Of a stretch of DNA of 64,000 nucleotides, positions 5,221 through 11,818 are shown in pieces; positions within the stretch are counted from its first letter, which is position 1; each line of letters begins with the position of its first letter. A program made the position numbers and the translations under genes. Source of the DNA: Bacteroidota bacterium (GTDB lineage Bacteria > Bacteroidota > Bacteroidia > Bacteroidales > WCHB1-69). The notes below the pieces were generated by a model. That model did no database searches. It saw nothing but the letters and a program-made list of their open reading frames with translations, and was not told the origin of the DNA. Where the stretch lies: assembly GCA_029570835.1 (NCBI GenBank), contig JAKPTX010000274.1, forward strand, positions 1-64,000, read 5' to 3'.

Positions 5221-5970
5221 AAATTTAGTGCAGAGCTCATACAGCAAAATTCCCGTCGCCACCGAAGCATTCAACGATTCCGCACCCGCTGTACCGCTTC
5301 CGGTTGGGATATGAACTTTATACTCAATCAGTTGCTCTACTTTTTTAGAGATTCCTTCGCTCTCATTGCCAACAATTACAAGACTGTTTTTCGCAAAATT
5401 TACCTCCCGAAGCGGTTTGCCTTCCAAAAACATTCCGTATGTGGCTCTACCAGCTTGACTTTGAATCAACTCCACTATATTTCCATACACGATTTTGACT
5501 CTACAAAAAGAACCCATAGTAGCCTGAATCACTTTGGGATTGCTGAACTCAACACAATCTTGAGAACAGAAGATCTGCCGGATACCAAACCAGTCGGCAC
5601 TGCGGATTATCGTTCCCAAATTACCCGGATCGCGAATCGCATCTAAAACGAGAATCGGCTGTTGCGAATCAAATTGAGCAGCATTGTACAGAGGAATCTT
5701 GACCACAGAAAGCACTTCTGGGGGAGTAGAAAGCGCACTGATCTGTCCCATCTCACGTTGAGAAATAATCTCACAATCGATATTGATAGGCAATTTCCCA
5801 TCCATCTTATCGATCCAATCCTGTGTTACATAGGTACTTACAATCTCCAAAGAGGAGTTCCACACCTCCAGGCACGATTTCGTTCCCTCTACCAACATCT
5901 CTTGGGTGAGTTCGCGCTGCTTTTTCTGATGTAACGCCCTAATCTTTTTGATTCTCTCTTTGCTAATCAT
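5215..5970 (-). CDS. TrmH/SpoU-family RNA 2'-O-methyltransferase
   Basis: SpoU motifs: LVLDAIRDPGNLGTIIRSADWFG, LVIVGNESEGIS, IPTGSGTAGAESLNASVATGILLYE. Confidence 0.9.
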   Translation of the reverse strand: MISKERIKKIRALHQKKQRELTQEMLVEGTKSCLEVWNSSLEIVSTYVTQDWIDKMDGKLPINIDCEIISQREMGQISALSTPPEVLSVVKIPLYNAAQFDSQQPILVLDAIRDPGNLGTIIRSADWFGIRQIFCSQDCVEFSNPKVIQATMGSFCRVKIVYGNIVELIQSQAGRATYGMFLEGKPLREVNFAKNSLVIVGNESEGISKKVEQLIEYKVHIPTGSGTAGAESLNASVATGILLYELCTKFN

Positions 5971-7330
5971 TTTGCAATATTATCATTTTAAATTGATCCC
6001 CGCGATCTTCAAAGTTTTTAAATAATCCGTAACTGGCTGCAGCTGGGGAAAGTAGACAAATTTTACCGGTAGAGGTCTCTTTTTTGCAAAACCGAACTAC
6101 ATCCGACAAATTGTTGGATATCAGGAACTTCTCAATATCCGATGCACTTTCTCCCCACTCTTGATAGATCCTTCTGCCGGCATCTCCCATCAATGCGATA
6201 TTTTTTACCGGGTGCCGGTTAAGATACTGATAGAGAGGCGTATAGTCGATGGAGCGATCCATCCCCCCCAATATTAATGTTTCCACAAAATTCAAAGTCT
6301 CTAAAGCAGAAATAGTCGCCTCGGGAATGGTGGAGATTGAGTCGTTATAATAGCTAACTCCCTCTAATGTAGCAACAAACTCGATTCTGTGAGGTAATCC
6401 TTTAAAACTGTATGCCGCTTCTATACTCTTTTCCAAAGAAATGCCCAAACGACTCGCAGCAAGGGAAGCCGCCAGCAGATTATATAAATTGTGCTTTCCT
6501 GCTAATCCGGGTAAGGATTTAAGCGGCTGATTCTCAACAATATTGTTCTCATTTCTAATGCTGATTGTTTCTCCCTCAATCCAGCCGAACAGTTGCTCAG
6601 AACTCTTTTCTCCGTATGGAAGTAGGGTAGAAATATGTTGAGAATGAGCTAATCGCTCTTTAAGCTGCTGATTATCATAATGATAGATCAAGAAATCTCC
6701 TTCTCTCTGCTTTAATGCCATATTCAATTTAGCTGAGTGATAAGCAGTTAAGTCCTGAAAGTGATCCAAATGCTCTTGATATAAATTCAAAATAATCCCG
6801 ATATGAGGCGCTTTACTCAGGTACTGTAGTTGGTGTGCGGACAATTCTGCCACAATAATGGTATCCTTTTTTATTTTTGGAATTATATCAAAAAGGGGGG
6901 TGCCAATATTCCCTCCCAGCAAACTCTTTTGCTGATTATGAACTAAAATGTGGTGGAGCAAGGAACTGGTACTGCTTTTCCCTTTTGTCCCTGTAATGCC
7001 CACTGTTTGCGCTCCCCAAAACCGTAGAAATAGGTCGGTTTGCGAGCTGATTTTCTCAGTCGGAACCTGATCTGCCCACTTTTTTGTGGAAACACCAGGC
7101 GATTTAATGATCAGATCAAACTGATTCAAAAAGTTCGCATCTACTTCGCCAATATAGGATTCTACAAACTGATCCTCAACCTCAAATGCTTGCTGATCCG
7201 ATATGGTTAATCTCTTATCAGGCAGATGGTTGCGAATAAACTGATAGGTGGATTTTCCCTCTTTCCCAAATCCTAAAATCAGTATCTCTAAGGATTCCAA
7301 TAGGTTGATTAATGCAGTAACTTGATCCAT
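5963..7330 (-). CDS. murD: Mur ligase, MurD family; looks like MurD2 (UDP-MurNAc-L-Ala--L-Glu ligase) rather than canonical MurD
   Basis: Mur ligase P-loop GITGTKGKSSTSSLLHHIL, NLYQEHLDHF, GxxGTP. ILGFGKEGKSTYQFIR at the N-terminus and YNDSISTIPEATISAL in place of the canonical NDSKATN; GGMDRSIDYTPLY. Confidence 0.85.
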   Translation of the reverse strand: MDQVTALINLLESLEILILGFGKEGKSTYQFIRNHLPDKRLTISDQQAFEVEDQFVESYIGEVDANFLNQFDLIIKSPGVSTKKWADQVPTEKISSQTDLFLRFWGAQTVGITGTKGKSSTSSLLHHILVHNQQKSLLGGNIGTPLFDIIPKIKKDTIIVAELSAHQLQYLSKAPHIGIILNLYQEHLDHFQDLTAYHSAKLNMALKQREGDFLIYHYDNQQLKERLAHSQHISTLLPYGEKSSEQLFGWIEGETISIRNENNIVENQPLKSLPGLAGKHNLYNLLAASLAASRLGISLEKSIEAAYSFKGLPHRIEFVATLEGVSYYNDSISTIPEATISALETLNFVETLILGGMDRSIDYTPLYQYLNRHPVKNIALMGDAGRRIYQEWGESASDIEKFLISNNLSDVVRFCKKETSTGKICLLSPAAASYGLFKNFEDRGDQFKMIILQND

Positions 7331-7362
7331 CCGATAATGCTAGAAATAATCGACAAAGATAA

Positions 7363-7393
7363 TAAAAAAAAAGACAGCGAATGAATCGCTGCC
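7363..7393 (-). terminator. Rho-independent terminator of the fabH-fabF-fabZ-like minus-strand genes
   Basis: Minus strand reads GGCAGCGA-TTCAT-TCGCTGTC followed by a run of T; 8-bp stem with one G-U. Confidence 0.75.
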
Positions 7394-7446
7394 TTTAATG
7401 GAAAAGAATATGATGACCTCATGAGGAGGAAATCCGAAAATATTGT

Positions 7447-7902
7447 TTATAGTGTGCTACTATCAATTAAAGCAAATGAGAGTTTACCTGAAGCACAAAG
7501 CTCCCCGTCAACTTTAGCGGATGCATCCACAAAAAAGAGAGGACCGCGTCGACTGGTAATTGTTGCAGAAACTTCAACGGTATCATTAGGACGAACTTGT
7601 TTTTTAAAACGAACTCCATCAATTCCTGTGAAGAAAGGAGTTTTTCCTTTTAATGCTTCCAACATCAGGATTGAACTTGATTGTCCCATAATTTCACAAA
7701 GAATAACGCCGGGAACAACCGGGTATCCGGGAAAATGACCATTTACAAAATACTCATCACCCGTGATGTGAAGTTTGCCGGTACAATGTTGTTTGCCATT
7801 TTCATCCTCAAATAAAACCATTTCGTCAACTAAAAGCATGGGTTCTCTGTGGGGAAGGTGTTCTTTGATTTGTTCACGGTTTAAAGTTAATACAGTTTTC
7901 AT
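7447..7902 (-). CDS. fabZ: 3-hydroxyacyl-ACP dehydratase, FabZ-like hotdog protein
   Basis: LPHREPMLLVDEM and NGHFPGYPVVPGVILCEIMGQSSS. Confidence 0.8.
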   Translation of the reverse strand: MKTVLTLNREQIKEHLPHREPMLLVDEMVLFEDENGKQHCTGKLHITGDEYFVNGHFPGYPVVPGVILCEIMGQSSSILMLEALKGKTPFFTGIDGVRFKKQVRPNDTVEVSATITSRRGPLFFVDASAKVDGELCASGKLSFALIDSSTL

Positions 7903-7953
7903 ATAATTTTAAGTTTATAATTAATTTAACAATCCACAAAGGTACAAAAAAAA

Positions 7954-9180
7954 TTAGATTTTTCTGAATGCTAATGTTCCATTATGGCCACCAAATCCTA
8001 AAGAGTTGGAAAGTGCTAAAGTAATATTGGCTTTTCTTGCAGTATGAGGTACATAATCCAAATCACATTCGGGATCCGGATCATTGAGGTTAATAGTGGG
8101 GGATATTATACCATCTTTGAGAGCCAGTACAGAAGCAATAGTTTCGAAACCTCCTGCAGCTCCCAACCCGTGGCCGGTCATTGATTTGCTGGAGCTGATT
8201 AAGATTTGACGTGCTCTTTCTTCGCCAAATGCTGTTTTGATTGCTGCAGTCTCAATTTTATCATTCAATGGCGTACCTGTACCATGTGCATTGATGTAGA
8301 TTAAGTCCTGATCTGTTAAATTAGCTTCTTCAGCAGCTAAACTCATCGCTCTTGCTGCTGATTCTCCACCAGGCATAGGTGCTGTTACGTGGAAAGCATC
8401 ACAAGTGTTACCATATCCACACATCTCTCCATAAATCTTGGCACCTCTCGCTTTGGCGTGCTCATACTCCTCTAATATAACGATTCCGGCACCTTCAGCA
8501 AGTACAAACCCTTGTCTTCTCTTATCAAAAGGAAGAGATGCAGCGTGGGGGTCTGTGGATTTGGATAGTGCTTTCATATTGGCAAATCCACTGATAGCGA
8601 GTGGATGTATCGATGATTCTGATCCCCCCGCAATGATAGCATCAGCATAACCATGCTTAATAGCACGATATGCCTCTCCAATGGAGTGTGTGGCTGTAGC
8701 ACATGCTGTAACAATAGGCAATGTAGGACCTTGAGCATTATGCATTATCGCAACGTTACCGGCTGCAATATTGGAAATTACCATAGGAATAAACAGTGGA
8801 GAAACCCATCTTGGACCATCTTGATACATCTTATTGGATTGATTTACAAAAGTTTCCATTCCTCCAATTCCGGAACCAATATAAACCCCCAAACGTTCAG
8901 GATTAATAGTCAGTTGACTGTCTTCCATAGCTTGTTTGGATGCGATCATAGCATATAAAGTGAAACGGTCCGACCTTCTGATAGTAGAGGGATCAAGACC
9001 ATGTGCTGCAGGATCAAAATCTTTCAATTCACCGGCAACCTTAACTTCAAGATTGCTGGTATCAAACGTTTTGATAAGATCGATACCGGAAACTCCATTT
9101 TTTAGATTATTCCAGAACGTTTCAACGTCATTTCCAATAGGGGAGAGTACTCCCAAACCTGTAATTACAACTCTTTTCAT
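7954..9180 (-). CDS. fabF: Beta-ketoacyl-ACP synthase II
   Basis: VTGLGVLSPIG, TACATATHSIGEA active site, INAHGTGTPLND, SSSKSMTGHGLGAAGG. Confidence 0.93.
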   Translation of the reverse strand: MKRVVITGLGVLSPIGNDVETFWNNLKNGVSGIDLIKTFDTSNLEVKVAGELKDFDPAAHGLDPSTIRRSDRFTLYAMIASKQAMEDSQLTINPERLGVYIGSGIGGMETFVNQSNKMYQDGPRWVSPLFIPMVISNIAAGNVAIMHNAQGPTLPIVTACATATHSIGEAYRAIKHGYADAIIAGGSESSIHPLAISGFANMKALSKSTDPHAASLPFDKRRQGFVLAEGAGIVILEEYEHAKARGAKIYGEMCGYGNTCDAFHVTAPMPGGESAARAMSLAAEEANLTDQDLIYINAHGTGTPLNDKIETAAIKTAFGEERARQILISSSKSMTGHGLGAAGGFETIASVLALKDGIISPTINLNDPDPECDLDYVPHTARKANITLALSNSLGFGGHNGTLAFRKI

Positions 9181-9261
9181 ATTTATTTATAAAATATTTG
9201 TTAATTGCTTTTCTTTTTTATATTTATATAATAGTTAACGTTATATCTTTCTTTTTATTTT

Positions 9262-10215
9262 TTACCATCTGATTAGTGCTGCTCCGGTACAAAATCCCCC
9301 GCCAAAAGCACTCAACATCAACAGATCATTCTCTTTGATTCTTCCTTCACGATTGATTTCATCAAGTAAAATGGGAATGGAAGCAGAAGAAGTATTTCCA
9401 TATTTGTGGATGTTTCTTGGGAATTTTTCAATGGGTTCTTCCAAAAAGTCACGAATAGTCTCTAAAATTCTGGTATTCGCTTGATGTAATAAGTACAATG
9501 AAACATCATGCGGAGTATATGTAGTTTTCTCAAATACCTTCTTAATATCAGCAATGGATGAGGAAACAGCCAACTTATAAACCTCTTTTCCATTCATAAT
9601 TAATGGGTGGGAAGGTTGTGGAATTTCATTAAATGGATTGGGTTCCATCGCTCTTTCGTAAAAAAGCGGTTCTGTGGCACATGTTGTGTTAAGATGAATG
9701 GCAATTAAATTTTCAGGTGCCTCATTGGTAACAACAACAGCTCCGGCACCATCTCCAAATAAAATACTGGCATCTCTGGCTCTCCAATCCACAAATTTGG
9801 AGGGCTCTTCAGCTGCAATAATTAATATTTTTTGGTATCTTCCGGTTCTAAAGTAGGCATCAACCATGTCAATAGCGTACACAAAACCGGTGCAGGCAAC
9901 ATTGATGTCAATACAAGGACAAGTTGCTCCCAGTTGGCCTTGTACAATAGAACTGAGAGAAGGGGTAACAAAGTTATTAGCTACATTGGAAACAATGATA
10001 AAATCCAAATCTTTTGGACCTATTTGAGCGTTTTCTAGAGCATTTTTTCCCGCTTCTACAGCTAAGTCTAAAATTGTTTCATTTGATAAAATCCTTCGCT
10101 CCTTAATTCCGGTTCGAGTCGTGATCCACTCATCACTAGTGTCCAAAAATTGGGAAAGTGTGTTGTTGGTGACGACTAATGATGGCAATGCACGCCCGGT
10201 TCCTCTAATTTTCAT
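9262..10215 (-). CDS. fabH: Beta-ketoacyl-ACP synthase III (FabH-type)
   Basis: SDEWITTRTGIKERRI, DINVACTGFVYAI, LHQANTRIL, HKYGNTSSASIPI, AFGGGFCTGAALIRW. Confidence 0.93.
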   Translation of the reverse strand: MKIRGTGRALPSLVVTNNTLSQFLDTSDEWITTRTGIKERRILSNETILDLAVEAGKNALENAQIGPKDLDFIIVSNVANNFVTPSLSSIVQGQLGATCPCIDINVACTGFVYAIDMVDAYFRTGRYQKILIIAAEEPSKFVDWRARDASILFGDGAGAVVVTNEAPENLIAIHLNTTCATEPLFYERAMEPNPFNEIPQPSHPLIMNGKEVYKLAVSSSIADIKKVFEKTTYTPHDVSLYLLHQANTRILETIRDFLEEPIEKFPRNIHKYGNTSSASIPILLDEINREGRIKENDLLMLSAFGGGFCTGAALIRW

Positions 10216-10362
10216 ACTCTATATTAAGTTGAATTGATAACTTGGTTAATTGACGCAATTCAATCTCCTTTTAATCTCAAATTGCAACTGCAAAAAAACT
10301 ACAAATATTAATAAATCTTAAAATAGTTGATATTTAAGATGCTTAAATTATATGAATTGGGT

Positions 10363-10399
10363 TATTTAGGGGTAAAATTCTCTATTTAGGGGTGAAATT
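10363..10399. promoter_or_regulatory. Tandem direct repeat, candidate regulator-binding site in the divergent fabH/murL-like intergenic region
   Basis: TATTTAGGGGTAAAATT (10363-10379) and TATTTAGGGGTGAAATT (10383-10399): 16/17 identical, 20-bp period. Confidence 0.45.
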
Positions 10400-10515
10400 T
10401 AATCACACACTCATTTGAACCCTGATAAATTGTTCTATTTTTTTTCATTTGAGCCATATAAAATGGCTTTATAGCTATTATTCTTTGAAAGGGGTTTTAA
10501 TTTAAATAAAATTTG

Positions 10516-10523
10516 TACTTTTG
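10516..10523 (+). promoter_or_regulatory. Bacteroidota -7 promoter element
   Basis: TACTTTTG matches TAnnTTTG, 21 bp upstream of the ATG at 10544. Confidence 0.5.
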
Positions 10524-10543
10524 TCTGCTTTATTTATAAAGAA

Positions 10544-11818
10544 ATGAGTCAACAAATTTCCTCGAAATGGACACAATTAAGAAAAACTTATCCGGTTTTT
10601 CATTATGATTCATTTCATTATTTTTGGAAAGAGGATCATATTGAAATCCAGTTTCAATTCCGAACTCAAGAACTGGTTTATAAACCCTCAATGATTGTAA
10701 AATACGGTAATTATTTGTCTCCCGGAATAAAAAATAGACAGCTCGATTCTTTTATATTTAAGATAGGTATGATTGAGCTGATTAGTTATTGGAAAGCAAC
10801 AGCCTCTCCGCTGGTTCATGTTCATCCGGCCCAACTCTCTATTTTAGAACAAAATTGGTGGAAAAAGCTCTATTTCAAAGGTTTATCGGAATATTTTTAT
10901 CAAAATGGCATCGAAACCAATTTGGAAGAGTTTCTTTCATTTTCTTTTGATACGGATGCACCTCATACCGCTCAATTTGATTATCCTCATGTTCTTTCTT
11001 CATCTTCTGTAATAGTACCAATAGGGGGGGGCAAGGATTCAGTTGTTACACTCGAACAGTTGCGCTCCTCTCGGGAAATTATACCATTAATTATTAACCC
11101 CCGAGGTGCTACGCTCGATTGTGCTAGAGTAGCAGGATTTGATTCTTTGGAGCAAATTTTTATTATTGAACGGGAAATAGATCCTTTACTGTTGAAAGTC
11201 AATTCAAAAGGTTATTTGAATGGACATACTCCATTTTCAGCTATGCTGGCTTTTTATACTGTTTTGGCAGCATATCTGACTCAAACACGCGATATTGCAT
11301 TGTCCAATGAGTCAAGTGCAAATGAAGCAACTATTGTAGGTACAGAGGTCAATCACCAATATTCAAAATCGTTGGAATTTGAAAGAGATTTTCAATATTA
11401 TGTCACTCATTTCATGAATGATTGTGCTCATTATTATAGTCATTTGAGACTCTATTCCGAATTACAAATTGCCCAATTCTTTGCTCAGTATGATCAATAT
11501 CATGCCGTGTTTAGAAGCTGTAACGCCGGAAGTAAAGAAAATATATGGTGTTGTAACTGCTCAAAATGTTTGTTTGCATACATTATTCTCTCTCCATTTA
11601 TTGAAGATGAAAAAATGATCCGAATCTTTGGTGAAGATCTGTTGGATAAAGAGAGTTTAGTACACTACTTTGATCAGTTGGTAGGGTGGGAGGCTACAAA
11701 ACCTTTTGAGTGTGTTGGGACTGTGGAAGAGGTGAATCAGGCAATACAAATGATGCTGGACTCTCGCAAAGATAAAAAATTGATTCAAAGATATATAGAA
11801 AATAATAACTTAAATTGA
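10544..11818 (+). CDS. murL: MurL-like UDP-MurNAc-L-Ala-L-Glu epimerase (PP-loop type GGGKDS protein)
   Basis: VIVPIGGGKDSVVTLE, ALSNESSANEATIVGTEVNHQYSKSLEFE, CNCSKCLFAYIILSPF; paired nearby with a MurD2-like ligase. Confidence 0.7.
   Translation: MSQQISSKWTQLRKTYPVFHYDSFHYFWKEDHIEIQFQFRTQELVYKPSMIVKYGNYLSPGIKNRQLDSFIFKIGMIELISYWKATASPLVHVHPAQLSILEQNWWKKLYFKGLSEYFYQNGIETNLEEFLSFSFDTDAPHTAQFDYPHVLSSSSVIVPIGGGKDSVVTLEQLRSSREIIPLIINPRGATLDCARVAGFDSLEQIFIIEREIDPLLLKVNSKGYLNGHTPFSAMLAFYTVLAAYLTQTRDIALSNESSANEATIVGTEVNHQYSKSLEFERDFQYYVTHFMNDCAHYYSHLRLYSELQIAQFFAQYDQYHAVFRSCNAGSKENIWCCNCSKCLFAYIILSPFIEDEKMIRIFGEDLLDKESLVHYFDQLVGWEATKPFECVGTVEEVNQAIQMMLDSRKDKKLIQRYIENNNLN

Follow-up and report, generated by a model that had tools for sequence, protein, structure and literature searches.

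An uncultured gut-type Bacteroidales bacterium appears to be a user of the MurD2-MurL route to cell-wall D-glutamate, as do about one third of the genomes sampled from its order. The two genes lie in a 64,000-nucleotide stretch of its DNA, here called the window, and we are highly confident that the ligase and the epimerase they encode form this route and make D-glutamate for the cell wall without glutamate racemase; use of L-glutamate and its epimerisation are inferred. In the proposed scheme, MurC would produce UDP-MurNAc-L-Ala, L-glutamate would be attached first and then flipped in place to D-glutamate, and MurE would proceed as usual. With MurE continuing on this product, both MurI and free D-glutamate would be unneeded. 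The best-supported reading is that, in this lineage, MurD2 and MurL took the place of MurI and MurD, and that the ligase part of MurD then became dispensable. The observations that support the route are homology, stereospecificity residues, membership of a MurD2 clade, absence of recognised D-glutamate sources, mutual exclusion with murI, adjacency or fusion of the two genes in relatives, and a canonical murD that no longer encodes its ligase part. The initial annotation had proposed a MurD2-like ligase and a MurL-like epimerase at this place, and both reading frames, with the motifs it quoted, are present exactly as claimed; their profile scores, given below, exclude a chance resemblance.

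Features of the window, of its genome and of related loci (first five rows, window positions)
Feature	Location	Strand	Details
MurD2-type ligase	5963..7330	-	455 aa; P-loop GTKGKS; E182, R348, I319 (E. coli literature numbering)
FabZ	7447..7902	-	between ligase and MurL genes; outside route
FabF	7954..9180	-	between ligase and MurL genes; outside route
FabH	9262..10215	-	between ligase and MurL genes; outside route
MurL-type epimerase (predicted)	10544..11818	+	424 aa; PP-loop-like GGGKDS at residues 161-166; conserved Cys326/336/339/342/390
murD stub, window genome	L011:11366-11923 (contig C81)		185 residues; start codon 2 nt after mraY
MurL-MurD2 fusions	L182, L183, L188, L191, L193, L204, L219, L018, L021		genomes include G079, G107
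MurD2-MurB fusions	L269:1688-3934, L270:2898-5195, L277:103-2628		one genus (g279), window's family

The ligase, which carries the motifs ILGFGKEGKS, NDSISTIPEAT and GGMDRSIDYTPL, matches the MurD model TIGR01087 with 318 bits (cut-off 212). This model is blind to the distinction between MurD and MurD2, because the X. sacchari MurD-type gene adjoining the annotated murL is also called MurD, with 298 bits. More informative are the residues defined by mutagenesis of the X. oryzae enzyme. X. oryzae MurD2 has E197 and R358 where E. coli MurD has Asp182 and Lys348, and the double substitution E197D/R358K turns the X. oryzae enzyme into a user of D-glutamate; K319T makes E. coli MurD accept L-glutamate (PMC8788868). 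The window ligase and X. sacchari MurD2 have E182, R348 and I319 in common, and the window ligase thus meets a MurD2 test based on E182 and R348. Among MurD2 proteins of the order, E182 is found in 45 of 46, and R348 and I319 each in 45 of 45 readable sequences, whereas all 36 canonical MurD proteins compared have D182, K348 and K319. Equivalents of Pro433 and Phe435 are absent from the window ligase, which has Ala and Tyr there. These positions are not defining, as they differ in X. oryzae MurD2 and yet P433A and F435L leave its specificity unaffected (PMC8788868). The general catalytic residues K115, N138, E157, H183 and K198 are kept in all ligases compared.

A tree of 48 sequences places X. 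sacchari MurD2 with the Bacteroidales MurD2 proteins, apart from E. coli MurD and canonical MurD of Bacteroidales, with 99% SH-aLRT support. This split is good but not final, because the branches leading to Xanthomonas and E. coli are long. Judged by sequence, the window ligase is a homolog of Xanthomonas MurD2 (27% identity to the X. sacchari protein, homologous over most of the length), and on its residues and clade we reject a canonical MurD that was merely relocated. In the absence of biochemistry, L-glutamate as its substrate is an inference.

The second protein is, again on sequence grounds, a MurL homolog of a distinct branch. It carries the motifs VPIGGGKDSVVTLE, SNESSANEATIVGTEVNHQYSKSLEFE and CNCSKC, and shares 33% identity over 356 aa with X. 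sacchari MurL (E=8e-53), which meets a test of broad-family homology. The model search that had been suggested as a check gives a match to NF041275 (MurL_Xanthomonadales) of 250 bits (E=3e-74). As this falls short of the model's 700-bit threshold (X. sacchari MurL scores 836 bits), the protein is classed only as a MurL homolog and not within the equivalog. Fifty positions are conserved across 50 Bacteroidales MurL proteins, Xanthomonas and two Pseudonocardia plasmid homologs, including GGG-DS, H228, N255-E256, N270-H271-Q272, SCN, W335-C336, C339, C342 and KPFxC.

No sequence-related solved structure for this protein exists in the PDB. In a confident AlphaFold model (pLDDT 95, pTM 0.92), GGGKDS links a strand to a helix, and PP-loop enzymes are among its best PDB partners in a fold search (E 0.02 to 0.4), beside other Rossmann-like matches. 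The recurring PP-loop partners are argininosuccinate synthetase, GMP synthetase (GuaA), TtuA and LarE, which are AMP-forming. PP-loop ATP pyrophosphatases resemble MurL in having a strand-GGxxDS-helix nucleotide loop and in AMP being the expected product. However, no match in the fold search is significant by E-value (best E 0.02), there is no significant sequence match either, and the resemblance is a lead rather than evidence of membership. MurL is reported to convert ATP to AMP, and an adenylate mechanism has been proposed for the X. oryzae enzyme (PMC8788868). PP-loop-type adenylation is therefore reasonable for MurL but unproven. That the window protein epimerises L- to D-glutamate in an ATP-dependent reaction, through an adenylate and with release of AMP, is likewise inferred without biochemistry.

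The genome of the window is a draft of 2.92 Mb that is 95% complete. It contains no protein of the Asp/Glu racemase family (PF01177) and two class-IV aminotransferases, identified as IlvE and as a fusion of PabB with PabC, and the window ligase is its sole full-length MurD-type protein. Within the limits of the draft, the genome thus meets a pathway test for MurD2 and MurL without glutamate racemase and D-amino-acid transaminase. Among 149 genomes of the order, MurL is found in 55 (53 of them with a full-length protein) and murI over the cut-off in 89, with no genome having both (Fisher p=2e-35). This value overstates the independence of the data, because the switch between MurL and murI takes only about two changes on a MraY-FtsW tree and hence reflects few evolutionary events. 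It is unlikely that murI was simply missed in an incomplete draft, since it is absent from 55 of 55 MurL genomes and present in 89 of the 94 others. Dat can also be set aside as a D-glutamate source, as no MurL genome of the order sample has a match over the cut-off and the aminotransferases here are IlvE and PabB-PabC. Five genomes (G015, G088, G118, G126 and G127) have neither MurL nor murI over the cut-off, reflecting another D-glutamate source or gaps in assembly.

In about 45 of the 53 genomes of the order with full-length MurL, MurD2 is the next gene after MurL, and the two are fused in one reading frame of 885-965 aa at nine loci. The initial annotation had noted that the genes are separated by fabH-fabF-fabZ; this holds for the lineage of the window but not for most of the order, where they are adjacent. 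Another member of the window's genus, genome G448, has the identical order trmH-murD2-fabZ-fabF-fabH / murL-nucleotidyltransferase-truA at locus L268, and the arrangement is therefore real and not an assembly artefact. MurL and MurD2 are apart in the family of the window and do not form one operon.

The old canonical murD of the window genome survives only as a C-terminal fragment between mraY and ftsW, which matches MurD 279-440 and Pfam Mur_ligase_C alone. Among 48 MurL genomes in which the copy in this cluster can be scored, 21 have such a stub and 27 a full-length canonical murD. In contrast, every one of the 92 murD copies on record for genomes without MurL has its full length, and the stub is never seen there (Fisher p=9e-12, a conservative value computed with 88 MurL-negative copies). 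Among 79 genomes from 17 genera of the window's family, about 72 have canonical MurD only at stub size, and one genus has the full-length form. The 27 MurL genomes with the longer copy (e.g. L084, L085, L122 and L127) combine MurL and MurD2 with an intact-looking canonical MurD that has canonical residues, and their D-glutamate source for it is unrecognised.

All 21 stubs are 176-185 aa long (mostly 182), start 1 to 94 nt downstream of mraY and share an internal start, the Met preceding LALQGKHN in full-length MurD. The ATP and UDP-sugar domains are gone, GKHN is mostly lost or eroded, and K348 of the D-glutamate pocket is kept in only 6 of 21. The stub is therefore neither a ligase nor a conserved binder of D-glutamate, and its retention is unexplained because a C-terminal domain cannot ligate. 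As to how often it arose, the MraY-FtsW tree speaks against a single origin, needing 13 changes of which at least 4 are forced by starred branches. Genus g35 and family f26 each hold both stub and full-length murD, which also points to more than one truncation. Nonetheless, AU tests do not reject one stub clade (p=0.11; p=0.81), and the number of truncations is undecided.

We tentatively suggest, as a possibility that falls short of a probable one, that, once MurD2 and MurL had taken over glutamate addition, canonical MurD was whittled, probably more than once, to a stand-alone C-terminal domain. This domain would keep a second job other than ligation in the mraY-ftsW cluster, where it might serve, for instance, as scaffold or regulator for precursor enzymes and the divisome. 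Our favoured guess, which is inferred, is that it binds or scaffolds other components of this cluster. It is also conceivable, if rather unlikely, that the stub is a decaying remnant kept for signals or translational coupling to ftsW at its end. Such a relic would fit the direct junction of the stub end with ftsW at scorable loci, and also the eroded GKHN and scarce K348. It would fit less well with the near-constant length and common start Met, or with the Asp of NDS and two Trp that are invariant in 21 of 21 stubs. Strong purifying selection is a further difficulty for it (dS 2.33 and dN 0.18 for the pair G005/G124; other stub pairs are synonymous-saturated). If the stub does have a second job, the third domain of MurD might have a hidden function in ordinary bacteria too, and the conserved leftover domain makes it a testable question whether MurD acts beyond glutamate ligation.

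Several observations count against the MurD2-MurL route, namely the limited identity of the window MurL to the Xanthomonas protein and its score below the NF041275 cut-off, the 27 MurL genomes with intact-looking canonical MurD, the incompleteness of the draft, and the lack of a common operon in the family. The window ligase might instead be an ordinary D-glutamate-using MurD that moved out of the dcw cluster. Its D-glutamate would then come from a racemase that escaped recognition, from a promiscuous transaminase or from salvage of the peptidoglycan of neighbours, and the GGGKDS protein would have some other job. The TIGR01087 call is compatible with this possibility, but applies equally to X. 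sacchari MurD2; the canonical MurD kept in 27 MurL genomes and weak Asp-racemase-like matches in some relatives could be read in the same way. We nevertheless regard it as improbable, given the E182/R348/I319 residues and the MurD2 clade, the lack of a PF01177 protein in the window genome, the strict exclusion of murI by MurL and the existence of MurL-MurD2 fusions. That the pair makes some other D-Glu/L-Glu product, such as a secondary metabolite or poly-glutamate, rather than the main peptidoglycan finds some support in the Pseudonocardia plasmids with MurL-like genes but no adjacent MurD2. It is very improbable because the dcw pathway, whose other genes are present (murE, mraY, ftsW), needs a MurD-type ligase, the window ligase is the only full-length one in the genome, and the MurD2-MurB fusion links MurD2 to precursor synthesis.

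The MurD2-MurL route therefore remains our preferred reading, and use of it in this Bacteroidota lineage, as the initial annotation inferred, is supported by homology, residues, clade and the lack of a recognised D-glutamate source. None of the three results named beforehand as refuting it was found: the ligase does not group with canonical MurD, the second protein does not lack similarity to MurL, and the proposed genome check for murI, D-amino-acid transaminase and a second murD revealed no intact murI plus murD, but only the two aminotransferases and the stub. The system resembles that of Xanthomonas in the homology of both proteins, the stereospecificity residues, the shared GTKGKS and NDSIST motifs and the absence of MurI and Dat. 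It differs in its phylum, in the opposite strands and intervening fab genes of the window lineage, in the fusions elsewhere in Bacteroidales, in the reduction of canonical murD to a C-terminal domain, and in a MurL outside the Xanthomonadales equivalog. With the canonical MurD and MurI of E. coli and other Bacteroidales it has in common the Mur ligase fold and Lys115, His183, Lys198 and Asn138, but the window ligase has D182E, K348R and K319I and falls in a separate clade, and its genome is without murI.

Open-access papers on MurL name Gammaproteobacteria, Alphaproteobacteria and Actinobacteria as carriers and mention relatives of low similarity in cyanobacteria, a fungus and an amoeba, and we found no report of the route in Bacteroidota (subscription papers were outside the search). 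Our results extend a rare peptidoglycan route, so far described from Proteobacteria and Actinobacteria, to about one third of the genomes sampled from a major order of Bacteroidota. In bacteria with MurD2 and MurL, inhibitors of glutamate racemase would be without a target, and inhibitors of MurD2 or MurL would have one. In a phylum sample of 297 genomes, the only real MurL match is in the window's own genome, and the gene therefore seems to be rare in the phylum outside this order. At least 574 related stretches turned up across GTDB. Of the best 80, almost all belong to Bacteroidales metagenome-assembled genomes sampled from rumen, faeces, sediment and lakes; the named relatives, too, are mostly such genomes, and their sources are rumen, faeces of animals, sediment and lake water.

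Two mobilizable Pseudonocardia plasmids (L242:2764-4164 and L243:2803-4197) encode a MurL-like 'hypothetical protein' with no MurD2 beside it. A candidate phage MurL, in a sequence labelled Bacteriophage sp. (MT836755.1, L244), was rejected: there MurL is followed by a MurD-like reading frame, a long translation-factor-like frame is also present, and the sequence looks like a bacterial scaffold.
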